Source of the DNA: Nitrospirota bacterium
Lineage (GTDB): Bacteria > Nitrospirota > Thermodesulfovibrionia > Thermodesulfovibrionales > JdFR-88
Assembly (NCBI GenBank): GCA_021825295.1
Contig: JAKAHV010000015.1
Coordinates: forward strand, 1-64,000
Direction of reading: 5' to 3'
DNA: 64,000 nucleotides
Shown here in pieces: positions 32,150-52,484 of this stretch. Positions within the stretch are counted from its first letter, which is position 1, and every line of letters begins with the position of its first letter. A model generated the notes under the pieces. That model was not told the origin of the DNA. It did not search any database and worked only from the letters and a program-made list of their open reading frames with translations. Position numbers and translations under genes: made by a program.

Positions 32150-32487
32150 GATAGCGGATGCGTCACCACACACGTCATCGCTAAAGTGCTCCATGCGCTC
32201 TGAGTGCCCCATGCGCTCTGCCGAAAACGTAAAATCGTTTGTAAAAGTAAAATCCTTCTTGACAGCCGGGCTGAAAAGTACTAATTTTAACACTGTAACA
32301 ATTCTCTTCTCATCAATTACACAAAAGCGGCAATCACAGTTCAGGGCCAATTTACCGGCGTCCCTAAATCCGGAAGACAGCTTCAATCCCGGGATGGCGG
32401 CCGAGACAAAGGACTCAGGTTCTGAATTCGTCGTGATGTGTTCAGACATCAAACAGGGAGCGGGCGGACGCCGCCTGCGGGAAGCGT
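32150..32487. other. 338-nt intergenic region before the NRPS gene
   Basis: No credible coding sequence; the 125-codon ORF at 32121-32498 reads as low-quality translation and crosses both neighbouring genes. A short direct repeat CCATGCGCTCTG occurs twice near 32.2 kb, and a strong sigma-70-like promoter is present in the middle. Confidence 0.6.
32259..32287 (+). promoter_or_regulatory. Sigma-70-type promoter for the NRPS-PPTase unit
   Basis: Perfect -35 TTGACA, 17-nt spacer, and -10 TAATTT (4 of 6 matches). Transcription would begin near 32294, leaving a leader of about 190 nt before ATG 32488. The best sigma-70-like site I saw in the window. Confidence 0.55.
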
Positions 32488-35121
32488 ATGAAGATTAAGG
32501 CGGAACCTGACAAGCCGTTTGCCAGATTCGCGAAGGCAGAAACCAATCAATCCATTGTCGACCGTTTCGAACAGCAGGTCGCAGGCGGTCCCTCAAGGCT
32601 TGCCGTAAAGGCAGGCAGGACCTGGCTCACATACGGCGCATTAAACCGGACTGCAAACCGTTTGGCGCGGGCAATAATTGGGCGCTGCGGACAGGGAAGC
32701 GAACCAGTCGCGATATTTCTAGACCAGGGATCGCGGCTCATCCCGGCAATATTCGGCGTCCTGAAGGCCGGCAAGCCCTACCTGGCGCTTGACACCTCCT
32801 TCCCGCAAGCAAGGAACGCCTCCATGCTGAGGCATTCCCGGCCGGGGCTTATCCTTACCGACAGAGATCATTACCCCCCAGCCTGCATATTGGCCGGCGA
32901 TTTTACGCCCCTGATTATCGATGAGATTGATTCCAGATTCTCCCCGGAGAACCTTAACCTGCCCATCTCTCCGGAGGCGGCCGCCTATATAATTTACACG
33001 TCCGGTTCCACGGGCGAGCCGAAGGGGGTGTGCCAGGACCACAGGAATGTTCTTCATAACGTCATGAGATGCACCAACATGATGCATATCGCCGCGGATG
33101 ACCGTCTTTCCCTCCTCTGGTCCTGCAGCTTCGCGGCGTCGGTGCCAAATGTATTCGGCGCCTTGCTGAATGGCGCGGCCCTCTTCCCCTTTGACCTGAG
33201 GAAGGAAGGCATCGTCAGGATGGCTGACTGGCTTATCAGGGAAAAAATCACCGTTTATCATTCGGTCCCGACAGTTTACCGCCATTTTATCTCCATGCTT
33301 ACGGGAATGGAAAAATTCCCGGCGCTTCGCATAATAAAACTCTCCGGCGAGCCTGTCCAGAGGAGGGATATTGAACTCTACAGGAAACATTTCGGCAAAG
33401 GCTGTGTTTTTCACGTGTCGTATGCATCCACGGAAACGAACATTGTCCGCCAGTTTTTTTGCGACCATCACACCCCACTCAACGGGGACACTGTGCCTGC
33501 CGGCTATGAAGTGGAGGATATGGAGGTATTGTTGCTTGACGAGCGCGGAAGGGAGGTCGCAAGCAACTGCGAGGGTGAAATTGCCGTCAGGAGCCGGTAT
33601 CTTCCGTCCGGCTATTACCTGGGGAATGACGCGGCCGAATCGCCATTTTTCCCGGATGAAGCGGGACGGCGCATTTACAGGACCGGCGATCTCGGCCGCA
33701 TGCTTCCGGACGGATGCCTGATTCATCTTGGGCGAAAGGACCTCCAGGTAAAGATCAGGGGCTATAGGGTCGAAATCGGCGAAGTCGAGTCGGCCCTGAA
33801 CGGGATTGACGCGATAAAGGAGGCAGCCGTCGTCGGGCGCGGTGATCCGAACGGCGGAAATCTCCTTTTGGCATATGTCGTGCCCCGTAAAGGGACTGCC
33901 ATAACGGCCAGGCAACTGCGCAACCGCCTGAAAGACAGGCTCCCGGACTACATGGTGCCTTCACGCTTTGTCTTTCTCGACGCCCTGCCCCTCACACTGA
34001 GCGGCAAGGTCGACCGGAGGGCATTGCCGGATCCCGAAGCGCAGGCCAGTCAGGAGGGGGATTATGTTGCACCGCGAACGCCGGAGGAAGCAATGCTGGC
34101 CGGCATCTGGCAAAAAATCCTGGGGACAAGGCGGGTAAGCGTGCTTGACAATTTCTTCGATCTGGGTGGACATTCCCTGCTGGTGGCGCGGCTGGCGGCC
34201 GAGATAAAAAAAATAACGGGCAGGACGCTCCCTATCGCAGCAATACTCCAGTCTCCGACAATCAGGCAATTGGCCGGCCTCCTCCAGGAAGATGGACCGC
34301 CATCAAGACTCCCCTCGATGGTGGTCCGGTCCGGCGGCTCGAAAGCGCCCTTTTTCTGGGTGGGCATCAACACTTACCGGCCGCCGTACCTGGGGACCGA
34401 TCAGCCGGTGTACGGCATCATTCTCCAGGGTGATTACGGTAAACCCATCGCTTTCAGGACCGTGGAAGAGCTGGCCGCTTACCACCTGGATGAAATAAGG
34501 ACTGTACAGCCGAAAGGTCCTTATTCGTTGGGAGGCTATTGCTTCAGCGGCCTGGTGGCCCTTGAGATCGCCCAGCAGTTGCTCAGGCAGGGAGAGGAAG
34601 TGCCGCTATTGTGCCTCGTTGAACCTCTCACGTACTGCCTGCCCCGGGGCAACGGCTCCGCGGCGCTCGATGTTTCATTGGCGTCCAGGGCCAAGGCCGC
34701 CCTGAGCGAAAAAATTGAGCTTCTGAGCAGCGCTGAAAAATTGATGTCCGTATCGGGTTTTGTTGGGCGAACGATAAGCGGAAAACTGAATTTCGCGTTA
34801 TGCCGGGCCCTTATTTCTCTGGGATACCCGGTCCCGCGGCGCCTCCGGGACTTCTACCGCCTTTATACGGCGGGAAGATATCCCGCCGGCGCATATCCCG
34901 GCAGGGCGGCCGTTTTCCTGATTGAAAGCAGGCGCGGCGAGGACTGGAGCAGGCTTGGCGCCAAGGGAACATATGTCCATGAGGTAACCGGAGCGCTGCA
35001 TCATACCATGCTGGATGAACCCTACGTGGAGATATGGACCAAACATCTTAGCCGTTACCTGATCGAGATTCAGGCGAATGAAAAGGCGAAAAGCAGCAAC
35101 AAGGAACTGGCCTTTTCCTGA
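32488..35121 (+). CDS. Stand-alone NRPS module: adenylation-PCP-thioesterase
   Basis: 877 residues with three domains. Adenylation (about 1-510) has YIIYTSGSTGEPKG, YASTETN, YRTGDLGRM and SGKVDRRALP. A carrier domain follows with DNFFDLGGHSLLVARL (phosphopantetheine Ser near residue 564). A thioesterase (about 625-870) has the nucleophile elbow GGYCFSG, where Cys replaces Ser. The A4 core reads SFAASV, lacking the Asp that binds the alpha-amino group of amino acids, so the substrate may be a hydroxy or other non-alpha-amino acid. No condensation domain. It probably activates one acid and hands it to a sugar or lipid. The PPTase gene downstream would prime it. Confidence 0.9.
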   Translation: MKIKAEPDKPFARFAKAETNQSIVDRFEQQVAGGPSRLAVKAGRTWLTYGALNRTANRLARAIIGRCGQGSEPVAIFLDQGSRLIPAIFGVLKAGKPYLALDTSFPQARNASMLRHSRPGLILTDRDHYPPACILAGDFTPLIIDEIDSRFSPENLNLPISPEAAAYIIYTSGSTGEPKGVCQDHRNVLHNVMRCTNMMHIAADDRLSLLWSCSFAASVPNVFGALLNGAALFPFDLRKEGIVRMADWLIREKITVYHSVPTVYRHFISMLTGMEKFPALRIIKLSGEPVQRRDIELYRKHFGKGCVFHVSYASTETNIVRQFFCDHHTPLNGDTVPAGYEVEDMEVLLLDERGREVASNCEGEIAVRSRYLPSGYYLGNDAAESPFFPDEAGRRIYRTGDLGRMLPDGCLIHLGRKDLQVKIRGYRVEIGEVESALNGIDAIKEAAVVGRGDPNGGNLLLAYVVPRKGTAITARQLRNRLKDRLPDYMVPSRFVFLDALPLTLSGKVDRRALPDPEAQASQEGDYVAPRTPEEAMLAGIWQKILGTRRVSVLDNFFDLGGHSLLVARLAAEIKKITGRTLPIAAILQSPTIRQLAGLLQEDGPPSRLPSMVVRSGGSKAPFFWVGINTYRPPYLGTDQPVYGIILQGDYGKPIAFRTVEELAAYHLDEIRTVQPKGPYSLGGYCFSGLVALEIAQQLLRQGEEVPLLCLVEPLTYCLPRGNGSAALDVSLASRAKAALSEKIELLSSAEKLMSVSGFVGRTISGKLNFALCRALISLGYPVPRRLRDFYRLYTAGRYPAGAYPGRAAVFLIESRRGEDWSRLGAKGTYVHEVTGALHHTMLDEPYVEIWTKHLSRYLIEIQANEKAKSSNKELAFS

Positions 35122-35133
35122 AAAAGGTTTTTT
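35111..35133 (+). terminator. Weak intrinsic terminator or attenuator at the end of the NRPS gene
   Basis: CCTTTT, a 5-nt loop, AAAAGG, then six T. The stem is AT-rich and overlaps the stop codon, so termination is probably partial, leaving some readthrough into the PPTase gene 30 nt on. Confidence 0.35.
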
Positions 35134-35163
35134 CACTCCTAAATTTTCTCCTTTGGTGGTCCG

Positions 35164-35874
35164 GTGCTGAGAAAAAAAGAAGCCCATGTGTGGAGCGCCT
35201 CTCTGGGGGAAATGCCGCCCGTTCAAATGGAGAGGCTACGGCAAGGCCTCTCGGACGATGAGTTGAGAAGGGCCGAGCGTTTTCGTTTTCCGGGAGACAG
35301 GGACCACTATATCATTGCGAGGGGAATTCTCAGGGCAATCCTGGCAGGTTATCTGAATATGAAGCCGGAGGAAGTCCGTTTCAGCTACGGGCCTTTTGGA
35401 AGACCGGAGCTCGCCGGAGATGCCGGGAAAAAACTCTGTTTCAGCGTCTCACATTCCAATGGCCTGGCTCTTTACGCGGTTGTCAAGGGCCGGAGGGTAG
35501 GCGTGGATATTGAATATATCCGGTCCGATATCATGGTTGAAGACATTGCGCGGCAGTTCTTCACGCCCAGTGAGAATATCCTGCTTGAGACATGCCCCGG
35601 GCAGGCCCGGAATAAGGCATTTTTCACGCTCTGGGCCAGAAAAGAGGCCTGCCTTAAGGCGCAGGGCACCGGGCTTGCCGAAGCCGGCGCCCTCATGAAA
35701 GCAGACCGTGATGCCTCGTGGTCACTTGCGGACCTCGACGTCAAGCGGGGATACGCCGCGGCCATTGCCGTCGAGGGACGCGGCATCGGCCTCCGCTGCC
35801 GGCAATGGGTGAGCGGCGCGCCACGGATAAGACGCCTTGCCCAGGGTCCGCGCGGCGTCTTTCGCATAGTATGA
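35164..35874 (+). CDS. 4'-phosphopantetheinyl transferase (Sfp type)
   Basis: 236 residues from GTG 35164. Attaches the phosphopantetheine arm of CoA to carrier proteins. LCFSVSHSNGLALYAV, VGVDIEYI (Mg-binding Asp/Glu) and FFTLWARKEACLKAQGTGL (WxxKEA) are the family motifs. It directly follows the NRPS gene, whose carrier domain is the obvious target. The last 51 codons run antisense through the end of hemB; the residues after AAAIAVEG look like tail added by loss of an earlier stop. Confidence 0.92.
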   Translation: MLRKKEAHVWSASLGEMPPVQMERLRQGLSDDELRRAERFRFPGDRDHYIIARGILRAILAGYLNMKPEEVRFSYGPFGRPELAGDAGKKLCFSVSHSNGLALYAVVKGRRVGVDIEYIRSDIMVEDIARQFFTPSENILLETCPGQARNKAFFTLWARKEACLKAQGTGLAEAGALMKADRDASWSLADLDVKRGYAAAIAVEGRGIGLRCRQWVSGAPRIRRLAQGPRGVFRIV

Positions 35875-37609: not shown

Positions 37610-37993
37610 TCAGATGATCCTGTAGCCTTCCCCCTCCGGTAGAGGCCGGAGAAAAAAATGTCTCACGAGGTCCTTGAATTTCCTGTAGTCGAGGGGTTTT
37701 AAAAGGCAGCAGGAATTTTTCAGGCCTTCGAGCGTCTTTAGCAGTTCCGCGTCTATATGGTCCGAAAGTATGATCACCGGCACTTCAAGCCATTTTATCT
37801 GCTCTAAAATCGGGTCGCCGAAGGGATAGCTAGTGATTATGAGGCCGGGCTGGCGCCGCGCCAGAAACGGCGGAAAACGGGCGGGATCTGCCTCCGCCAC
37901 GGCATCGTAACCCTCCGTGGCCAGAATGGCCTGGCAGATGCGGGAAAACCTGGCCTCGTCAAATATAAGGATTTTCTTGTCTGGCAGGATCAT
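37610..37993 (-). CDS. Pseudo-receiver domain protein
   Basis: 127 residues with the CheY fold: KKILIFDEARFSRICQAIL (strand 1 with acidic residues), VPVIILSD (switch Ser) and CCLLKPLDYRKF (conserved Lys). The strand-3 position that normally carries the phosphorylated Asp reads LIITSYPF, so Ser or Thr replaces it. It can probably not be phosphorylated and may act as a constitutive partner or decoy for the neighbouring regulators. Follows the NtrC-type gene by 109 nt. Confidence 0.72.
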   Translation of the reverse strand: MILPDKKILIFDEARFSRICQAILATEGYDAVAEADPARFPPFLARRQPGLIITSYPFGDPILEQIKWLEVPVIILSDHIDAELLKTLEGLKNSCCLLKPLDYRKFKDLVRHFFLRPLPEGEGYRII

Positions 37994-38102: not shown

Positions 38103-39452
38103 TCAAAGAGCGCCGCCAAGCTTCTTGTAGAAGGACTTCCTGGAAATGCCAAGCGCCCTCGCCGCCTGCGATTTGTTGCCCCTGCACTGGGAAAGGGCCC
38201 TTTTAACAGCTTGGATCTCGAGTTCCCTGAGCGTCTTTAAAGAGCCGGCAAGCCCCCGTCGCCTTTTAAAAGATAAAATTTCGGCGGGCATTTCACCGGC
38301 GGTTATGGCCTCTCCCGCGGCAAGCACGACCGCGCGCTCAATCACGTTTCTCAGTTGTCTTACGTTTCCCGGCCAGGAATATCCCAGCAGTATTCCCATC
38401 ATGTCCGGCGGGATGGAGAGCTTCTTGCCCTCCCGCGTGCAGTATTCGTTTAGAAACTCCGCCGCCAGCAGCGGAAGGTCCTCCATCCTTTCCCTGAGCG
38501 GGGGCATGTTGATGTGCACGATGTTTATCCGGTAAAAGAGGTCTTCCCTGAAATTGCCCTTTTTGACTTCCGCATGAAGCTCGCGGTTGGTGGAACAGAT
38601 CAGCCGGAAATTCATTTTGATCCTGCGGTTTCCGCCCAGCCTTTGCATCTCCCGCTCCTCGAGCACCCGCAGGAGTTTTGACTGAAGCGAATGCCCCAAT
38701 TCACCTATTTCATCGAGGAAGAGGGTCCCCGCCCCGGCCTCCTCGAACCTGCCGATCCTCCTTGAGCAGGCCCCGGTGAAGGCTCCTTTCTCATAGCCGA
38801 AGAGCTCGGACTCAATAAGCTCCGCCGGTATGGCCGCGCAGTTGGCGGCGACAAAGGGCAGGTCCCTTCTGACGCCTCCGTAGTGGATGGCCCTGGCGGC
38901 CAGCTCCTTGCCGGTGCCGGTCTCCCCGGTGATAAGTACGCTGCTTGCAGAATCACTTACCGACTCGATTATCCCCGAAACCCTCAGCATCCCGTCCGTC
39001 TTGCCGGTGAGATTCACCCGCCTGCGGCATCCCAGACTGATCTTCAGACGCTCGATCTCATGTTTCAGCCGCCTTTGCTCAATCGCCCGTTCCAGCATTT
39101 TCTTCAGTTTCAGGAAATCCGGGGGCTTGACGAAATAATAAAAGGCCCCCTTTATAAGGGCCTGCACGGCGGACTCCACGGTCCCGTAGGCGGTAAGGAA
39201 AATGACGGGAACGCCCGGATGCCTTCTCATCACAAAATCGAAAAGCCCCATCCCGTCCGTGCAAGGCATCCTGAGATCGGTGATCACCGCGTCGATGCTC
39301 TGCCTGTCCATTGTCTCCATCGCCTCCGAGCCGTCCGGCGAGGCAAACACATTGTACCCCTCGGCGGACAAGATGGCCGACAGGACTTTCAGCGTATTCG
39401 GCTCGTCATCGGCGATGAGTATGTTGGCCTTGTTGGCGGTTCCAGTATCCAT
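38103..39452 (-). CDS. Sigma-54-dependent response regulator (NtrC family)
   Basis: 449 residues. An intact receiver (ILIADDEPN, VITDLRMPCTDG with the phospho-Asp, FLTAYG, FVKPP), an AAA+ domain (GETGTGKE Walker A, EKGAFTGA sigma-54 contact loop, GTLFLDEIGEL Walker B, R-finger region) and a C-terminal Fis-type helix-turn-helix (NKSQAARALGISRKSFYKKL). Lies 15 nt downstream of the PGT-dehydratase gene, so is probably co-transcribed with the polysaccharide initiation genes. It likely drives sigma-54 promoters such as the one at the NusG-like gene. Confidence 0.93.
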   Translation of the reverse strand: MDTGTANKANILIADDEPNTLKVLSAILSAEGYNVFASPDGSEAMETMDRQSIDAVITDLRMPCTDGMGLFDFVMRRHPGVPVIFLTAYGTVESAVQALIKGAFYYFVKPPDFLKLKKMLERAIEQRRLKHEIERLKISLGCRRRVNLTGKTDGMLRVSGIIESVSDSASSVLITGETGTGKELAARAIHYGGVRRDLPFVAANCAAIPAELIESELFGYEKGAFTGACSRRIGRFEEAGAGTLFLDEIGELGHSLQSKLLRVLEEREMQRLGGNRRIKMNFRLICSTNRELHAEVKKGNFREDLFYRINIVHINMPPLRERMEDLPLLAAEFLNEYCTREGKKLSIPPDMMGILLGYSWPGNVRQLRNVIERAVVLAAGEAITAGEMPAEILSFKRRRGLAGSLKTLRELEIQAVKRALSQCRGNKSQAARALGISRKSFYKKLGGAL

Positions 39453-39467
39453 AAAAATCCCGGCTGA

Positions 39468-42155
39468 TCAAATCAGGTTGATCTCCTCCGTTTTTGCAAG
39501 GATGCCCTGGAAATTGGGCACGGCCCTTCTGATGCAGTCGATCACATCGTCCGCGGAAAGCGCGTGGACCGCATCTTCAAGCTCCTTCACCATCGCTTCA
39601 AGCTCCTCATTGGAAGGGACGCTGGAGACCGCCATCTTCAGCTTTTCATGGGAGGTGGGCAGTATGGTTTCGCTCGCGTCGAAGAGCTCCTCAAAGAGTT
39701 TTTCGCCCGGCCGCAGCCCGGAGAACTCTATTTTTATCTCCTTGTGGGGCACAAGGCCCGACAGTCTCACAAAATTCTCGGCCAGGTCCAGAATTTTCAC
39801 CGGCTCACCCATATCGAGCACGAATATCTCGCCGCCCCGCCCCGATGCCCCGGCTATCAGCACCAGTTGCATCGCCTCCGGTATCAGCATAAAAAACCTT
39901 TTCACCTCGGGATGGGTGACCGTCAGCGGTCCGCCCTTGGCAAGCTGCTCCCTGAAGATGGGCACAACGCTGCCGTTTGTCCCCAGGACGTTGCCGAACC
40001 TCACCACGCTGAACCGGCTCCCGGAAAGACGGTTCATGGCTATGGTCAGGAACTCGGCCAGGCGCTTTGTGGCTCCCATGACGCTGGTGGGGTTCACGGC
40101 CTTGTCCGTCGATATGGCGACAAAGCTCTCAACACCGTGGCGGTCCGCCGCGTGGAGGAGATTCCTTGTGCCAAGGACGTTGTTTTTCACCGCCTCCACC
40201 ACGTTCGATTCCATCAGCGGCACGTGCTTGTACGCCGCGGCGTGGAAGACTATCTGGGGATTATGCCTGGAAAACAGGTATTCAATGTAAAGGGGGTCCT
40301 GTATGTCGCCCACGGCGCTTGTCAGGGCCGCGCACGCGGCCCCCCCGCGTCTGAGCTCCATGTCTATGTGGAAAAGGTTGTTTTCGTATCTGTCCAGAAG
40401 CACAAGGCGGCCCGGATTGTACTTCATTATCTGCCTGGACAGCTCGGAGCCGATTGAGCCGCCAGCCCCCGTCACAAACACGGATTTGCCTTCAATGAAC
40501 TCCCTGACGGATTTTATATCGGCCCGGACGGGTTCTCTCTGCAGGAGGTCCTCGAGGGAGAGCGGTTTTATACGCGAAAAAACGTATTGCTTCTGGAGGG
40601 CGGATACGAGATTCTCCTCCTGGATAAGACCAAGTCCGATGAGTTTGGAGCCGAGTTTGCCGCCCTCAGCCCTCTGAAGCGACAGGCCCATCGCGAGTTG
40701 GGAATGGGTGATGTGGCCCGCGTCGATCAGCACCTGGCCTATCCTGGGGGCTATCGAGACGTCCCCGTTCAGGATGTCCTCCATAACGGGCAGCTTCTTT
40801 ACCGGGATATTGAAGGGCTTGGAAAGCTCGTATATCCTTTTCAGGGCATCGGGGCCGCAGGGAAACGAGACCAGAATCTCGTCCGGCAGGTGCTTCCTGA
40901 TGAGGTCGGGAAGGTGCTCCTTTGGCCCGAGAATCGGCACGCCGTGGATGGAGAGTCCCCTTTTGTACCTGTCATCGTCGATAAAGCCGACGGGTTCGTA
41001 GGAATTCCTGTGCCCGTTTGTCTTCATCTGCCTCACGGCGATCTCTCCGGCGTCGCCGGCGCCAACTATAAAGACCTTCTTCTGCGGGCTTTCGGCGCTC
41101 ATATACTCGTTGAATATCCTGATCATGAGCCTCATGCCACCGGACAACGACACGAACACCAGGAAATCTATGATGTAAATGGAGCGCGGATATCCCCTGT
41201 CCCCGAAAATGAAAACGACCGCGGCCATGAAGAGCGCGTTTCCGGCGGCCGAGGTCCAGAGGATATCCACCAGGTCCTTTATCCCGGCATACCGCCACAG
41301 ACTCTTATAAAGGCCCGCCCGCAAATAAAAGAAGAGCCTTATGGCAAGCAGGAGCGGGATATAGGTGAGAAATTGGGCCACGTTCACAGGCGACAGAAGA
41401 GACTCGAACCTCAGAATAAATGCAAGATAGTTTGCCGTGACCGTTTGAACGAGCAGGGTCATGGCGAACACCAGGCGCCTTCGCCTTATTATGAAATCCC
41501 TCACGGGACTGTAAATGGACGTGGTGAAAGGTCTTCCATCCTTGCCTGGCCCGTCCGTCCGCCCTGCCCGTACCCAGCTTCTGAACACTGTCCCCGTAAT
41601 GATCCCGAGGTCTTTCAAGGTCCCGGCGTTGCTGAGGTATTGTTTTGAAATCCTGATCTTCTCCGGGAGTATTTTCTTGATATAGATTTCCTCTCCGCCG
41701 GAGGAAAGCGGCAGCGCGTCCTCCTCCTGCATGAAACAGACGGATGCAGGGTCCGTCATGCCCGGCCGGACGGCCAGCAGGGTCTTGTAATCATCGCGAA
41801 AAAGCTCAATATACTTCCTCACTTCCGGCCTGGGCCCGACGAAGCTCATCTCCCCCTTGAGGATATTTATCAGCTGCGGCAGCTCATCGAGCTTGTACTT
41901 CCTCAAAAAACTCCCGAGCGGCGTGACCCTCACGTCGCCCTTTGACGTAACGAGCGGCCCCTCCGCCTGGGCGCCGTCCCTCATGGTGCGGAATTTGTAG
42001 ATTGAGAAGGGCGTGAAATTCATGCCCATCCTCTCCTGCCGGAAGAAAACCGGGCCCTCGGAGCTCCATTTCACAGCCAGGGCGATAACGGCAAGCAGGG
42101 GCGCAAAGGCAACAAGGCCAAACAGGGAAAAAAGGATGTCAATCGCACGCTTCAT
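39468..42155 (-). CDS. Fusion: phosphoglycosyl transferase + MshEN domain + UDP-sugar 4,6-dehydratase
   Basis: 895 residues from ATG 42155 (AGGTGAGG site); the track's extra 39 residues are unrelated. Domain order: monotopic initiating sugar transferase (residues 1 to about 190; MKRAIDILFSLFG, YKFRTM, KLDELPQLINILKGEMSFVGPRPEV); four membrane helices; a nucleotide-binding CoA-like domain (KKVFIVGAGDAGE); an MshEN-type segment (RIGQVLIDAGHITHSQLAMG then GGKLGSKLIGLGLIQEENL); and a WbpM/PglF-type dehydratase (VTGAGGSIGSELSRQ, HAAAYKHVPLME, STDKAVNPTSVMGATKR with Ser-Met-Lys). It would make UDP-4-keto-6-deoxy-HexNAc and load a sugar phosphate on undecaprenyl phosphate. MshEN domains bind c-di-GMP, implying control. 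Confidence 0.9.
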   Translation of the reverse strand: MKRAIDILFSLFGLVAFAPLLAVIALAVKWSSEGPVFFRQERMGMNFTPFSIYKFRTMRDGAQAEGPLVTSKGDVRVTPLGSFLRKYKLDELPQLINILKGEMSFVGPRPEVRKYIELFRDDYKTLLAVRPGMTDPASVCFMQEEDALPLSSGGEEIYIKKILPEKIRISKQYLSNAGTLKDLGIITGTVFRSWVRAGRTDGPGKDGRPFTTSIYSPVRDFIIRRRRLVFAMTLLVQTVTANYLAFILRFESLLSPVNVAQFLTYIPLLLAIRLFFYLRAGLYKSLWRYAGIKDLVDILWTSAAGNALFMAAVVFIFGDRGYPRSIYIIDFLVFVSLSGGMRLMIRIFNEYMSAESPQKKVFIVGAGDAGEIAVRQMKTNGHRNSYEPVGFIDDDRYKRGLSIHGVPILGPKEHLPDLIRKHLPDEILVSFPCGPDALKRIYELSKPFNIPVKKLPVMEDILNGDVSIAPRIGQVLIDAGHITHSQLAMGLSLQRAEGGKLGSKLIGLGLIQEENLVSALQKQYVFSRIKPLSLEDLLQREPVRADIKSVREFIEGKSVFVTGAGGSIGSELSRQIMKYNPGRLVLLDRYENNLFHIDMELRRGGAACAALTSAVGDIQDPLYIEYLFSRHNPQIVFHAAAYKHVPLMESNVVEAVKNNVLGTRNLLHAADRHGVESFVAISTDKAVNPTSVMGATKRLAEFLTIAMNRLSGSRFSVVRFGNVLGTNGSVVPIFREQLAKGGPLTVTHPEVKRFFMLIPEAMQLVLIAGASGRGGEIFVLDMGEPVKILDLAENFVRLSGLVPHKEIKIEFSGLRPGEKLFEELFDASETILPTSHEKLKMAVSSVPSNEELEAMVKELEDAVHALSADDVIDCIRRAVPNFQGILAKTEEINLI

Positions 42156-42160
42156 AAACC

Positions 42161-43312
42161 TCACCTTTTGAACTTTCTGGCCAGATGAGTCACCACCTCG
42201 ATTACTCCGGAGACCTCCTCCTCCATCATCCCGGGATATATGGGAAGCGAGACGATGCGCCCGAACACCCATTCGGATGCGGGGTATTCATGCAGCCTGC
42301 AGCCGTATTTGTTCTTGTAGTAGGGGTGCCTGTAGAGAGGGATGAAATGGACAGACGCGCCAATTCCCCTTTTCGACAGCTCCTCGATGAAACGGTCCCT
42401 GCCGATCTTCAGGCTCTCCAGGTTCAGTTTCAGGCAGTAGAGGTGCCAGGCGCTTTCCCTGTCTGGCTTGACAAACGGCGTTATAAGCTCCTCCATCGCG
42501 CTGAAGGCCTCGTTGTATCTGGCGGCGATCTCCCTCCTCGCCTGCCACATCCATTCCAGTTTTGCGAGCTGCGCAAGACCGAGGGCCGCCTGGACATCTG
42601 TCATGTTGTACTTCCATCCGGCGTCTATGACCTCGTATCGCCATGTGCCGCTTTTTGTATATCTCTTCCAGGCGTCCCTGGAGATCCCGTGCATCCTCAG
42701 CACCCGCATCGTCTCGGCCCACCGCTCGTCGTTCGTGACCGCCATCCCCCCTTCCCCTGTACAAAGGGTTTTTGTTGCGTAGAAGCTGAAGCATGTGATA
42801 TCGCCCAGGCCGCCGACCTTTTTGTACCTGTACCATGCCGGCAGGGCATGGGCCGCGTCCTCGATCACATGCACCCGGCGCGCCTTAGCGATCTCCAGTA
42901 TCTCGTCCATGTCACAGGGCTGGCCCGCATAGTGCACGGGGATTATGGCCTTTGTCCGTCCAGTGATGCGGCTTTCGAGCTTGTTCAAGTCGATATTGGA
43001 GGTCCCGGTCTCTATGTCGGCGAAGACGGGCCTGGCGTTGAAATAGCTGATCACCTCCGAGGTGGCCGTAAACGTCATGGCGGGCACGATTACCTCGTCG
43101 CCCTCCTGCAGACCGATGGCCCGGAGCGCCAGGTGGAGGCAGGCGGTGCAGGAGTTCATCGAGACGGCATGCCCGGACTCCACATACCCCGCAAACCTGT
43201 TTTCGAATTCGATCGTCTTGGGGCCCATAGTGAGCCAGCCGGACCTGATGGCCTTTACAACGGCTGCTATCTCTTCATCTGTTATGTAGGGCTTGTGGAA
43301 TGGGATTTCCAT
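42161..43312 (-). CDS. UDP-4-keto-6-deoxy-sugar 4-aminotransferase (PglE/DegT-like)
   Basis: 383 residues. PFHKPYITDEEIAAV, VIVPAMTFTATSEV, VIEDAAHALPAW (PLP-contacting Asp) and SFYATKTLCTGEGG (Schiff-base Lys) are standard. It ends 5 nt before the dehydratase fusion, so it almost certainly aminates that enzyme's 4-keto product to a UDP-4-amino-4,6-dideoxy-HexNAc, as PglE does after PglF. An AGGA site precedes ATG 43312. Confidence 0.92.
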   Translation of the reverse strand: MEIPFHKPYITDEEIAAVVKAIRSGWLTMGPKTIEFENRFAGYVESGHAVSMNSCTACLHLALRAIGLQEGDEVIVPAMTFTATSEVISYFNARPVFADIETGTSNIDLNKLESRITGRTKAIIPVHYAGQPCDMDEILEIAKARRVHVIEDAAHALPAWYRYKKVGGLGDITCFSFYATKTLCTGEGGMAVTNDERWAETMRVLRMHGISRDAWKRYTKSGTWRYEVIDAGWKYNMTDVQAALGLAQLAKLEWMWQARREIAARYNEAFSAMEELITPFVKPDRESAWHLYCLKLNLESLKIGRDRFIEELSKRGIGASVHFIPLYRHPYYKNKYGCRLHEYPASEWVFGRIVSLPIYPGMMEEEVSGVIEVVTHLARKFKR

Positions 43313-43475: not shown

Positions 43476-43985
43476 CTAAACCATCTCGATATCCTCGGCC
43501 GGGACCTTTACCCCTATGCTCCTGCCAAGGATATCTATGTTAACGATGAGCATATAGCAGTCTTCTTTCTTGACTATAACGCCAGAGGCCCCGCTTAGCG
43601 GCCCCCTCATGACCATCACCCGCACGCCTTCCTTCAGGGCGGGATAGATGTCCAGGCCGCTGCCCTTTTCCACCATGAGCTTCAGGGAATCGATCTCGTT
43701 GTCGGGCACGGCAAGAGGCACTCCCTGTTGCCCCGAGACCAGGCTTACCACCCCCCTGGCCTTCAGGACGTTGACAAACTCCGAGGGATTCGGATTAACA
43801 CGCACAAACAGATATCCGGGGAAGAGAGGAAATTCCACCACCTTTTTGCGGTCCTTCCACTGCCGGTTCCTTTTGATGAGGGGCAGATACGACTCCACCC
43901 CCTTTTTTTGAAGCTGGCCGTAGGCCACGCCCTCGTGTCTTGATCTCACGTATATGGCGTACCATTTGAACCCGGCGGCTCCCAT
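43476..43985 (-). CDS. NusG-like transcription antiterminator (UpxY/RfaH type)
   Basis: NGN domain (FKWYAIYVRSRHE, VEFPLFPGYLFVRV) followed by a KOW domain (LKEGVRVMVMRGPLSGASGVIVKKE). About 169 residues from ATG 43985; in-frame starts at 44003 and 44027 exist. I prefer 43985 because a sigma-54 promoter overlaps the 44027 start and would begin transcription near 44005, but no start has a strong ribosome site. Such specialised NusG paralogues let RNA polymerase read through long capsule or LPS operons; here the likely target is this locus, including the 30-kb island. Confidence 0.88.
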   Translation of the reverse strand: MGAAGFKWYAIYVRSRHEGVAYGQLQKKGVESYLPLIKRNRQWKDRKKVVEFPLFPGYLFVRVNPNPSEFVNVLKARGVVSLVSGQQGVPLAVPDNEIDSLKLMVEKGSGLDIYPALKEGVRVMVMRGPLSGASGVIVKKEDCYMLIVNIDILGRSIGVKVPAEDIEMV

Positions 43986-44015
43986 GACGGTTTTTTCATC
44001 CATGATATTTGAAAT

Positions 44016-44031
44016 TGCAATTGGCATGCCA
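44016..44031 (-). promoter_or_regulatory. Sigma-54 (-24/-12) promoter of the NusG-like gene
   Basis: On the minus strand the site reads TGGCAT-GCCAA-TTGCA, with GG and GC separated by exactly 10 nt as required for RpoN. It directly precedes the antiterminator gene. Two NtrC-type activators and an NtrB-like kinase are encoded within a few kb. Confidence 0.6.
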
Positions 44032-48659: not shown

Positions 48660-50120
48660 TCAGGCGCAGGTCTTTGCGGAGCTGATTTCCCTGAGTCTCT
48701 TATAGAAGGTCTTCCTTGAAATGCCCAGCAGCTTTGCCGCCTTCGATTTGTTGCCGCGGCACTCCTCCAGCGCGCCTATGATGGCCTGCTCTTCCAGTTC
48801 CCTCAGGGTCTGGGTGGCCTGCGGCGGCGGGCAGGCAGGCCCGCAAAGGCCCCCCGCATCGTTGATTCCCGGTCCTCCGGCCGCGGAGCGGACGGCCGGA
48901 GCCGCGGGGCCGTCCGCACTGCCGGCAAGAATCTCTTCGGGCAGGTCGTCTACCGAGACCAGTCCGTTCCTGCTAAGGACGGTGACCCTTTCAAGGACGT
49001 TTCTCAACTGCCTTATATTTCCGGGCCATGAATATTCGCAGAGGATTTTGAGGACCTCCGCCGAAAGGGAGACCTCCTTTTTTTCCCTCTCCGAGAACTC
49101 CATTACGAACTCCGCGGCCAGCCGGGGTATATCGTCCCTTCTGAGCCTCAGCGGCGGAACGGATATATGGACCACGTTTATCCGGTAATAAAGGTCCATC
49201 CGGAAATTGCCGGACTGCACGTCTTTTTCAAGATCGCGGTTCGTGGAGGAGACGAGCCGGAAATCGACTTTTATCTTCCGGCTGCCGCCGAGCCGCTCGA
49301 TCTCCCTTTCCTGAAGCACCCGCAGAAGCTTTGCCTGCAGCGGCAGCCCCAGTTCTGTTATCTCATCCAGAAAGATGGTGCCGGAAGAGGCCTCCTCGAA
49401 CCTTCCGATCCTGCGGGATACGGCATTGGTGAAGGCGCCCTTCTCGTAGCCGAAGAGCTCCGATTCAAGCAATTCGCGCGGGATGGCGGCGCAGTTGACG
49501 GCCACAAAGGGTTTCCCGGCCCTGACGCCGCCGTAGTGCAGGGCCCTTGCGATCAGCTCCTTGCCGGTGCCGGTCTCGCCGGTTATGAGCACGCTGCTGG
49601 TGGTGTCCTTCACGGCCTCGACCGTCTCCAGTATCTTCCTGAGCGCGGGATCCTTGCCTATGATCCGCATCGGGGGGGTGCCTGATCCCGGCATCTCCGC
49701 GCGCGTCGCGCCCGCGCCGCAAACGGCCGGCCGCTCGGTATGCGCGCGGCGCGTCCGCACCGCTTTTGAGAGCACTCCTCTTAGCTTGGTGTAATCCGGC
49801 GGCTTTATGAAATAGTAATATGCCCCCTTCGTTATGGAATGGACGGCGGACTCAACCGTCCCGTAGGCGGTCAGAAAGATCACCGGGATGCCGGGATGGT
49901 TCAGCTTCACGTATTCGAAGAGCTGCATGCCGTCTATCTCCGGCATCTTCAGGTCGGTGATTATCGCATCCATCGGTTCTTCCCTGATGATATCAAGGGC
50001 CTTCCGGGCGTCGAAGGATTTGAAAATGTTGTAGCCGTCGCTGGAAAGCATCGCCGAGAGCACTTTAACAGCATTGGGCTCGTCATCGACGATAAGCACA
50101 TTGCCGAAGCCTTCAGCCAT
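48660..50120 (-). CDS. Sigma-54-type response regulator with altered GAFTGA loop
   Basis: 486 residues, paralogue of the regulator at 38.1 kb. Receiver intact (VLIVDDEPN, IITDLKMPEIDG, FLTAYG, FIKPP). The AAA+ domain has GETGTGKE and GTIFLDEITEL, but the sigma-54 contact loop reads EKGAFTNA, with Asn replacing the last Gly. A 50-residue Pro/Ala/Gly-rich linker precedes the Fis-type helix-turn-helix (NKSKAAKLLGISRKTFYKRL). The substitution could weaken or change contact with sigma-54, so it may work as a repressor, an activator of a subset of promoters, or a partner of the first regulator. Confidence 0.92.
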   Translation of the reverse strand: MAEGFGNVLIVDDEPNAVKVLSAMLSSDGYNIFKSFDARKALDIIREEPMDAIITDLKMPEIDGMQLFEYVKLNHPGIPVIFLTAYGTVESAVHSITKGAYYYFIKPPDYTKLRGVLSKAVRTRRAHTERPAVCGAGATRAEMPGSGTPPMRIIGKDPALRKILETVEAVKDTTSSVLITGETGTGKELIARALHYGGVRAGKPFVAVNCAAIPRELLESELFGYEKGAFTNAVSRRIGRFEEASSGTIFLDEITELGLPLQAKLLRVLQEREIERLGGSRKIKVDFRLVSSTNRDLEKDVQSGNFRMDLYYRINVVHISVPPLRLRRDDIPRLAAEFVMEFSEREKKEVSLSAEVLKILCEYSWPGNIRQLRNVLERVTVLSRNGLVSVDDLPEEILAGSADGPAAPAVRSAAGGPGINDAGGLCGPACPPPQATQTLRELEEQAIIGALEECRGNKSKAAKLLGISRKTFYKRLREISSAKTCA

Positions 50121-50270: not shown

Positions 50271-52484
50271 TCAGATGGTGAAACCGCCGAAGGGCTCCTC
50301 CGGCAAGTTCTCGCGGGTCAGGCCGTTGCCAGGTTTTTCGTCCAGGCCTGTCCGCCGCACTTCCATATCCGGGCGCAACTCTCCACGGCGGGACTGAACG
50401 TCATTGCAGCCGCCCTGCGGCTGATTTAAATCGCCCTTGTCTTTTACGAACGGGGGCTTCACCGTGACGGACGGGTCCCACGCGACAGTCCTGTTTTTTC
50501 CGCTGGTCTTGGCCGAATAAAGGGACTTGTCCGCCTGTATTATAATGTTTTCCATCGAATCGCCGCACTCCGGGTACATGGCGATCCCGGTGCTTATGGT
50601 CAGGCATCCCCCGGACTCTTTCCTCTTTACGCCGGGAAGGATCATGCCGCACACGTTTCCTCTTATCCTTTCGAGGACGTTGAACGCCTCGTCCTTGCTG
50701 GTCTGCGGCATTATTATCGCGAATTCCTCGCCCCCTATCCTCACAAGGATGTCGTTTGCCCTGATGGAATTGGTCATTATATTGGCGATCTCCCTGAGGG
50801 CGTAATCGCCCGCAAGGTGGCCCTCGGTGTCGTTGAGGACCTTGAAGTCGTCAATGTCCAGAATGGCCAGCGAGAAATTCAGGCCGTACCTCTTCGCCCT
50901 CTGGTATTCCTCCTCGAGCCGCACATCGAAGTAGCGCCTGTTGAAAAGGCCCGTAAGGGGGTCGGTTATCGAAAGCTCCCTCATCTGCTCGGATGTCCTG
51001 TGGCAGTTCGACAGCTTCAAAAGGATTGAGGACTGCAGGGCGAAGGGCAGAAGCACCGCCAGGTCCTTTTCAGTGAATGGCTCTCCCGTGGCCTTGTCCG
51101 AAACGTTCAGTATCCCCATCGTCTCGCCGGAGATCTTCATGGGCATGCTTATGCAGGACTGCGTTTTGAAAAGCGGCTTGGGCGCGCCCGAGAATGCCTT
51201 CAGTTTTTCTTCGCTGTCTATGAGTATCGGCACCCCCTGTTCAAAGACCCTTCCGGCGATGCCCTCCCCCACCCTTATCTTCACTTCCTTCATCAGCCAC
51301 TTGTTCAGGCCCATTACGGAAATTACGCTGAGGGAATCGCCCTCGTCATCGGGCAGCATGACGGAGCATTTCTCCGCATCCACCAGGGCGGCCGCCTCCG
51401 CCACTATATGATCGCACAATGCCTGCCGGTCCTTGTAATGGGAGAAAAGCTGCGTGGTCTTCATGGTTATCAGGTTCAGGCCGTCCGAGTGTTTTTCGTA
51501 CTGATCGCGCAGATATCTGACGCCAAAGAGGTATGCCGAGAGTTTGCAGAGCTCGTTTACCGAGTCGAATGCCTCACGGTCCAGCAGGGAATTGAAAACG
51601 CCCAAAAACCCGAAAAAACCTATCTGGGAGTGGATCGGGAAAAGGTACATGGAGATTATCTCTTCCGGAAAGCCGGAGTGCTTCAATTTATAGCTGTCAA
51701 TGGCTGAAACCGGCATCCTCGACTGGATGGCGTTTGATACCAGGTAATTGTCCTTCGAGAGCTTGAGCCTCCTGATAACATCCCGGTTGCGGCCGCCCGC
51801 GGACTCGGGACAGAAGAAGTCCTTGTTACGCGCGAATATGGCCGCCGTATCTATATTAAACAGAAAGATGACCGTATCGACTATTGTCTGCCGGACATCC
51901 TCGATCGTGGCATCGGATTTTATGTTCGCCGCAAGGTTTATGATCGTCTTGGACCACTGCCATCTCTTGTTCAGCTCCCCTTTTTCATACCCGGAGGAGA
52001 TTATGTTTTCCAGCAGCAGCTTTATGGATTTTATATAATTTTCAATGGCATGCGAGTCCACGAATTTCAGCTCCGCTCTCCACTGTTCCATCGTGCGGTT
52101 TGCTAGCCCGAACTTGTCGGCCTTCGTGGCGTAGAATCTGGCGAAATCCTCGCCGGACATGTAAAAGCCCTCGCACAGGGCCACCAGCATGATCTCCTTG
52201 TATCTGATGGGAATAAAAACATGATACTGCATGGTAAAACCCTGGATAAGAAAGGATTTCGTGTTTTTGAGCGTCAGCTTGAGGTATTTTGAAAGAAACC
52301 CGTTGTATAACTCCTGCCCCTTCTTGTCCGTCTTGATCGAAGCAAGGAGGGGGTCTTCCCTGGAAGGCGCTATCAGAAGATTTTCCCTGTCGTCATAGAG
52401 CGAGAAATTAAGCCCGGTTATGCTGGAGAGGGCCTTCATGGCCTTTGTCAGAAACTGTATATCTATGAGATGTATCATCCTCAT
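50271..52484 (-). CDS. Diguanylate cyclase with PocR-like and GAF sensory domains
   Basis: 737 residues. Residues about 1-130 (IDIQFLTKAMKALSSITGLNFSLYDD) resemble a PocR-type sensor. Two GAF-like regions follow, the second with CSVMLPDDEGDSLSV and VGEGIAGRVFEQG. The catalytic domain has DPLTGLFNRRYFD and the active-site RIGGEEFAII. An RAND I-site lies five residues before GGEEF, so product feedback inhibition is expected. A polar 65-residue C-terminal tail is of unknown use. Makes c-di-GMP in the cytosol; neighbouring PilZ and MshEN proteins are likely readers. Confidence 0.92.
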   Translation of the reverse strand: MRMIHLIDIQFLTKAMKALSSITGLNFSLYDDRENLLIAPSREDPLLASIKTDKKGQELYNGFLSKYLKLTLKNTKSFLIQGFTMQYHVFIPIRYKEIMLVALCEGFYMSGEDFARFYATKADKFGLANRTMEQWRAELKFVDSHAIENYIKSIKLLLENIISSGYEKGELNKRWQWSKTIINLAANIKSDATIEDVRQTIVDTVIFLFNIDTAAIFARNKDFFCPESAGGRNRDVIRRLKLSKDNYLVSNAIQSRMPVSAIDSYKLKHSGFPEEIISMYLFPIHSQIGFFGFLGVFNSLLDREAFDSVNELCKLSAYLFGVRYLRDQYEKHSDGLNLITMKTTQLFSHYKDRQALCDHIVAEAAALVDAEKCSVMLPDDEGDSLSVISVMGLNKWLMKEVKIRVGEGIAGRVFEQGVPILIDSEEKLKAFSGAPKPLFKTQSCISMPMKISGETMGILNVSDKATGEPFTEKDLAVLLPFALQSSILLKLSNCHRTSEQMRELSITDPLTGLFNRRYFDVRLEEEYQRAKRYGLNFSLAILDIDDFKVLNDTEGHLAGDYALREIANIMTNSIRANDILVRIGGEEFAIIMPQTSKDEAFNVLERIRGNVCGMILPGVKRKESGGCLTISTGIAMYPECGDSMENIIIQADKSLYSAKTSGKNRTVAWDPSVTVKPPFVKDKGDLNQPQGGCNDVQSRRGELRPDMEVRRTGLDEKPGNGLTRENLPEEPFGGFTI

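Follow-up and report, generated by a model that had tools for sequence, protein, structure and literature searches.

The window analyzed here is a stretch of 64,000 nt on contig JAKAHV010000015.1 of the Nitrospirota bacterium assembly GCA_021825295.1. On its minus strand, positions 39468 to 42155 encode an 895-residue protein in which, according to the open reading frame and to Pfam and NCBIfam profiles, a phosphoglycosyl transferase (PGT), four transmembrane (TM) helices, a CoA_binding_3 domain, an MshEN_N domain and a PglF-type 4,6-dehydratase follow one another. The gene starts with the ATG at 42155, directly preceded by AGGTGAGG, and this ATG lies 5 nt from the stop codon of a DegT gene. 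An earlier note on this DNA had proposed that PGT and 4,6-dehydratase share one polypeptide at these coordinates, and the open reading frame, the Pfam domains and uninterrupted homologues in five other species (66 to 87% identity) bear this out.

The monotopic PGT domain (41583 to 42152, minus strand; residues 2 to 191) matches PF02397 (Bac_transf) at 3.5e-55 and contains the catalytic Asp-Glu dyad in KLDELPQL; its closest match is PglC (8e37). The TM helices, at approximately residues 226 to 352, lie N-terminal to the CoA_binding_3/DUF domain (PF13727, residues 281 to 433; 40857 to 41315, minus strand) and overlap its N-terminal part. The UDP-GlcNAc 4,6-dehydratase catalytic domain (PF02719, Polysacc_synt_2, residues 559 to 841; 39633 to 40481, minus strand) harbors the motifs TGAGGSIG, STDK, and SVMGATK, which match PglF, as well as SMK-type catalytic residues, and its closest match is C. 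jejuni PglF (5bju, 4e-82). The catalytic motifs of both enzymes are thus intact. Judging from these sequence features, the dehydratase domain is of the PglF type and predicted to convert UDP-GlcNAc to a 4-keto-6-deoxy sugar, and the assembled protein is a putative membrane-bound PglF-type dehydratase fused at its N terminus to a monotopic PGT.

The neighboring genes, all on the minus strand, were assigned from profiles and neighborhood comparison. Directly upstream is a DegT-family nucleotide-sugar aminotransferase (42161 to 43312) and further upstream an UpxY/NusG-type antiterminator (43476 to 44027; NF033644 above cut-off), while an NtrC-type sigma-54 response regulator lies downstream (38103 to 39452). 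Families of the order repeatedly show this arrangement in somewhat varying form: UpxY antiterminator, DegT, PGT, dehydratase and NtrC-type regulator, with RmlC at a greater distance. We take the aminotransferase, PGT and dehydratase to be the set expected for an undecaprenyl pyrophosphate-linked 4-amino-4,6-dideoxy-HexNAc of the bacillosamine or FucNAc4N type. The dehydratase product is not a direct PGT substrate, since the adjacent aminotransferase must act in between. The genome contains ten GGDEF and two EAL matches. One intact GGDEF gene lies about 8 kb from the fusion gene and encodes a diguanylate cyclase (PocR-GAF-GGDEF; 50271 to 52484, minus strand), identified by profile and motif, in which GGEEF and the I-site RxxD are intact; it is a possible local source of c-di-GMP.

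Other genes of this region deserve mention. Near the operon, a 127-residue receiver-like protein (37610 to 37993, minus strand) has a serine at the position of the phospho-acceptor aspartate (ITSYPFG) in 5/5 aligned homologues and is a putative conserved pseudo-receiver. It loosely recalls the Myxococcus receiver EpsW, an activator of the PGT EpsZ; EpsW, however, is phosphorylated. A second NtrC-type sigma-54 response regulator (48660 to 50120, minus strand), related to the one at 38103 to 39452, lies about 10 kb from it within this conserved polysaccharide region. The glycan region also encodes a predicted NRPS-like adenylation-carrier-thioesterase protein (32488 to 35874, plus strand), followed by a 4'-phosphopantetheinyl transferase-like gene.

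Alignment with insert-free sister dehydratases delimits, in the fusion protein, a 58-residue insertion between the CoA_binding_3 and catalytic domains (residues 469 to 526; 40578 to 40751, minus strand). Its segment R471 to Q523 consists of two 24-residue motifs, RIGQVLIDAGHITHSQLAMGLSLQ (motif 1; 40674 to 40745, minus strand) and KLGSKLIGLGLIQEENLVSALQKQ (motif 2; 40587 to 40658, minus strand), separated by the 5-residue spacer RAEGG. The tandem repeats that the earlier note had placed at about residues 485 to 550 are thus real, but their position is 471 to 523. We compared them with the published MshEN consensus, RLGxx(LVI)(LVI)xxG(LVI)(LVI)xxxxLxxxLxxQ, occurring twice with a 5-residue spacer (PMC5013675). 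The insert matches it, with lysine instead of arginine at position 1 of motif 2, an exchange that the relaxed MshEN motif permits (PMC5013675), and with a histidine instead of a hydrophobic residue at core position 11 of motif 1. The strict two-motif pattern occurs once in the six frames of the window. The NCBIfam model NF053729 ("cyclic di-GMP-binding domain, MshE-related") matched at all 53/53 positions with 47.1 bits (cut-off, 38), delimiting a predicted MshEN_N c-di-GMP-binding domain at residues 471 to 523 (40587 to 40745, minus strand), and sequence matches in the PDB were T. thermophilus PilF (1e-9) and V. cholerae MshE (1e-5).

A check against PF05157, which had been suggested as decisive, gave no match for either the whole protein or the isolated segment. 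This does not refute the assignment, since PF05157 models MshEN_C. Indeed, in two other proteins of the same genome, one of them a PilB-type ATPase, the NF053729 match is followed on the C-terminal side by PF05157: on C29 directly (NF053729, 23949 to 24107; PF05157, 23694 to 23948) and on C60 likewise C-terminally (32452 to 32610 and 32191 to 32442), both on the minus strand. PF05157 was dropped as a membership test, as in this genome it covers a subdomain beyond the motif pair that is absent from the insert. From its sequence, the insert is predicted to be MshEN_N alone, without MshEN_C; the claim that the repeats are diagnostic of MshEN thus stands for these 53 residues only. The isolated MshEN_N of MshE suffices for c-di-GMP binding, with a KD of 0.35 uM (PMC5013675). 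The insert shares 26 to 33 of 53 residues with the PilB MshEN of the same genome and 16 to 25 with the three other MshEN domains compared, which suggests a pilB-like donor.

MshEN features also appeared elsewhere in this genome. A CheA-like kinase carries the motif pair in the middle of the protein (L041, G000:C55), and two further proteins (L038 and L042) carry it near the N terminus. Two neighboring proteins of unusual architecture (L004 and L006, G000:C12) combine an N-terminal PF05157 with repeated membrane segments bearing RTxLAxxRTGLAFIRTG-type repeats.

Because a Foldseek search with the whole model reports the dehydratase domain only, the insert was modeled alone with AlphaFold2 (an 89-residue stretch; mean pLDDT, 70.5; core, 83 to 88). 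The model has the four-helix MshEN_N fold, and its best PDB match is c-di-GMP-bound MshE (5htl; Z, 8.4; root mean square deviation, 1.8 A over 59 residues); c-di-GMP-bound GSPII domains of PilF come next (9gl5; Z, 8.0; 1.6 A over 55 residues). The Foldseek E-values are weak (0.09), the domain being small, and unrelated helical bundles (fumarase helices) reach a Z of about 6 against the model, so that the fold supports the assignment but would not settle it alone. Confidence in the full-length model is moderate (pLDDT, 75; pTM, 0.52) and low at both borders of the insert; the placement of the domain relative to the active sites was therefore given no weight.

In the alignment with sister dehydratases, exactly 58 residues interrupt a conserved linker between (D)(I/L)L(D/N)G(N/D)(V/I)S(V/I) and S(Q/R)(I/M)(K/R)PLSLEDLLQREPV; insert-free relatives are otherwise colinear. 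The insert is present at the same site in 30 of the 230 genomes of the class, and in an even sample of the phylum (295 genomes) all 14/14 full-length matches fell in that class, the others aligning from the linker onwards only. Relatives with names are Nitrospirae or Thermodesulfovibrionales metagenome-assembled genomes. Outside the class we sampled 747 genomes in three other groups. At the thresholds used, the full-length architecture was found neither in 297 genomes of one phylum, centered on an Acidobacteriota genome, nor in 392 genomes around G304; a search of 58 genomes centered on a Bdellovibrionota genome, run without a positive control, likewise gave none. A Sphingobium plasmid match with 95% coverage was discarded: it has no MshEN, and the alignment is merely stretched over the linker. 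Shigella plasmid matches represent a sugar transferase and a dehydratase encoded by adjacent genes.

The catalytic-domain tree does not reject a single origin of the insert (AU p, 0.52). On this tree a fused PGT would have arisen twice, once within the MshEN clade, in six species belonging to one family, and once in an MshEN-free pair; the two proteins of that pair (L025 and L026, from G030 and G006) are PGT-dehydratase fusions without MshEN and of separate origin. Elsewhere in the order, most loci with MshEN have a separate PGT gene immediately upstream, and this accounts for the way in which the fusion came about. The insert is thus older than the PGT fusion, a late event confined to six species. 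The insertion belongs to the dehydratase. Given the age of the insert and the mostly separate PGT gene, the shared feature would be control of this enzyme in the first place, and not of the PGT.

We next turn to the ligand site, with contact positions taken from PMC5013675. Across 29 homologues, mean entropy was 0.59 at the 12 ligand-contact positions, 0.90 at core positions and 1.45 at the rest (Mann-Whitney p, 0.002, a value that ignores kinship). Both motif glycines and the motif-1 glutamine are present in 29/29 homologues, and position 1 is lysine or arginine in 29/29 (motif 1) and 28/29 (motif 2). The residues that contact c-di-GMP are thus present in the repeats and conserved in relatives. 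A lysine at position 1 is compatible with binding, since PilF GSPII-B has one and binds c-di-GMP at 6 nM (PMC11731258). The motif-2 glutamine is replaced (by H, P, T or K) in 7/29 homologues, all unfused, and in some of these, binding may be weak or absent. The consensus motif alone is not sufficient, as PilF GSPII-A does not bind even with the consensus restored in the full domain (PMC12002112). We consider it highly probable that the insert of the window protein binds c-di-GMP.

How binding could act is suggested by the location of the domain. c-di-GMP made by the ten GGDEF proteins, including the one encoded 8 kb away, would bind MshEN_N in the hinge between CoA_binding_3 and the catalytic domain. 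As its concentration rises, one molecule would be clamped between the two motifs, and this could stiffen or reorient the hinge and change dehydratase activity. The resulting UDP-4-keto-6-deoxy-GlcNAc would receive its amino group from the neighboring DegT aminotransferase and then pass to the PGT, which would transfer the completed sugar phosphate to the lipid carrier. c-di-GMP would thereby set the flux into lipid-linked glycan synthesis through dehydratase output and precursor supply. An allosteric effect on the dehydratase is likely. c-di-GMP usually promotes exopolysaccharide, and activation is for this reason somewhat favored over inhibition. That the effect also reaches the PGT in the fused proteins is less certain and perhaps doubtful, and simultaneous gating of precursor dehydration and lipid-carrier loading in one polypeptide, the strongest form of the model, is more tentative still. 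The DUF of WbaP senses uridine nucleotides, and this DUF is common to PglF-like dehydratases (PMC10942596).

The insert could instead be a docking or spacer module without any sensing role, linking the enzyme to another apparatus of the envelope or to a member of the glycan complex. MshEN domains of T2SS/T4P ATPases that lack the ligand residues are inferred to act in this manner, XpsE-type domains, whose motifs are degenerate, fail to bind c-di-GMP (PMC5013675), and the missing motif-2 glutamine in 7/29 homologues would fit such a role. However, both glutamines and both RLG-type glycines are kept in the window protein and in each of the six PGT-fused proteins, with leucine or a conservative residue at the Leu positions, and within the insert conservation is highest at the contact positions, whereas a bare docking module would lead one to expect the reverse. 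We therefore regard this explanation as unlikely. About as improbable, in our view, is that c-di-GMP binds but governs location or assembly, by recruitment to a diguanylate cyclase or a glycan complex, instead of the catalytic rate. The local pairing of DgcJ with NfrB (PMC8669469) provides a precedent, and the intact cyclase gene in the window lies at a distance of about 8 kb; yet the insert sits in the hinge between two domains, where conformational control would be well placed, and no diguanylate cyclase gene is found among the neighbors in other families, where the stretches compared rarely reach that far.

This genome and most of its relatives are draft multi-contig assemblies, and one could suspect that errors of assembly or annotation produced the fusion or the insert, or that the resemblance is due to chance. 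The fusion is nevertheless uninterrupted in six species, the insert occupies the identical site in 30 genomes, and the two-motif pattern was recovered in 0/20,000 shuffles of the protein; we consider the chance of an artefact negligible. Our preferred explanation is a c-di-GMP receptor in the hinge that controls the dehydratase and hence glycan initiation, to which we assign a probability of about 0.7.

If this holds, the biofilm signal c-di-GMP would switch surface-glycan synthesis at its first step; acting on precursor supply and lipid-carrier loading, it would spare the scarce undecaprenyl phosphate pool. If both steps were gated, a second messenger would directly switch the start of a lipid-linked pathway, of either the Wzx/Wzy or the protein-glycosylation type. 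The insert moreover points to a possible function for the enigmatic hinge between DUF and dehydratase in PglF-like enzymes, and sister enzymes with and without it form a natural series for direct biochemical comparison. For synthase-dependent polysaccharides, direct control by c-di-GMP is well documented; how Wzx/Wzy pathways are controlled post-translationally is described as not fully understood (PMC12802240).

The earlier note knew of no described protein with this architecture, and we found none: searches of a limited literature combining MshEN or MshE with dehydratase yielded nothing on MshEN within a nucleotide-sugar dehydratase or a PGT. Fusions of MshEN to glycosyltransferase and other domains were noted by Wang et al. 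(PMC5013675). The closest precedent is E. coli NfrB, a glycosyltransferase for which activation by c-di-GMP via MshEN was inferred from mutants (PMC8669469). Both proteins join MshEN to a membrane enzyme of polysaccharide synthesis, but NfrB is a processive-type GT2 with a C-terminal MshEN, whereas the window protein carries MshEN_N, without MshEN_C, inside a dehydratase fused to an initiating PGT. With the MshE and PilB/PilF ATPases it shares the tandem 24-residue motifs, the 5-residue spacer and the four-helix fold; unlike them, it lacks MshEN_C and the ATPase, and its insert is internal to a metabolic enzyme. PglF/WbpM/CapD-type enzymes such as C. jejuni PglF (5BJU) have in common with it the four TM helices, DUF and dehydratase, the SMK-type triad and about 42% identity over the catalytic domain, to which the window protein adds the insert and the N-terminal PGT. 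A PGT core fused to another functional domain is typical of Bi-PGTs (PMC10942596), but the two identified here (L025 and L026) contain no second-messenger domain. The N terminus of the family model of EpsG-type chain-length tyrosine kinases (TIGR03029) also matches the insert; these are kinases and not dehydratases or PGTs, and the match is possibly another link of MshEN-like motifs to exopolysaccharide loci. Finally, post-translational control at the first Wzx/Wzy step is found in M. xanthus EpsW-EpsZ (PMC12802240) and, via the DUF, in WbaP (PMC10942596), where the signals are a phospho-receiver protein and UMP, respectively, rather than c-di-GMP. Overall, the sensor itself is known; what appears to be new is the class of enzyme that carries it and the point at which control would be exerted.
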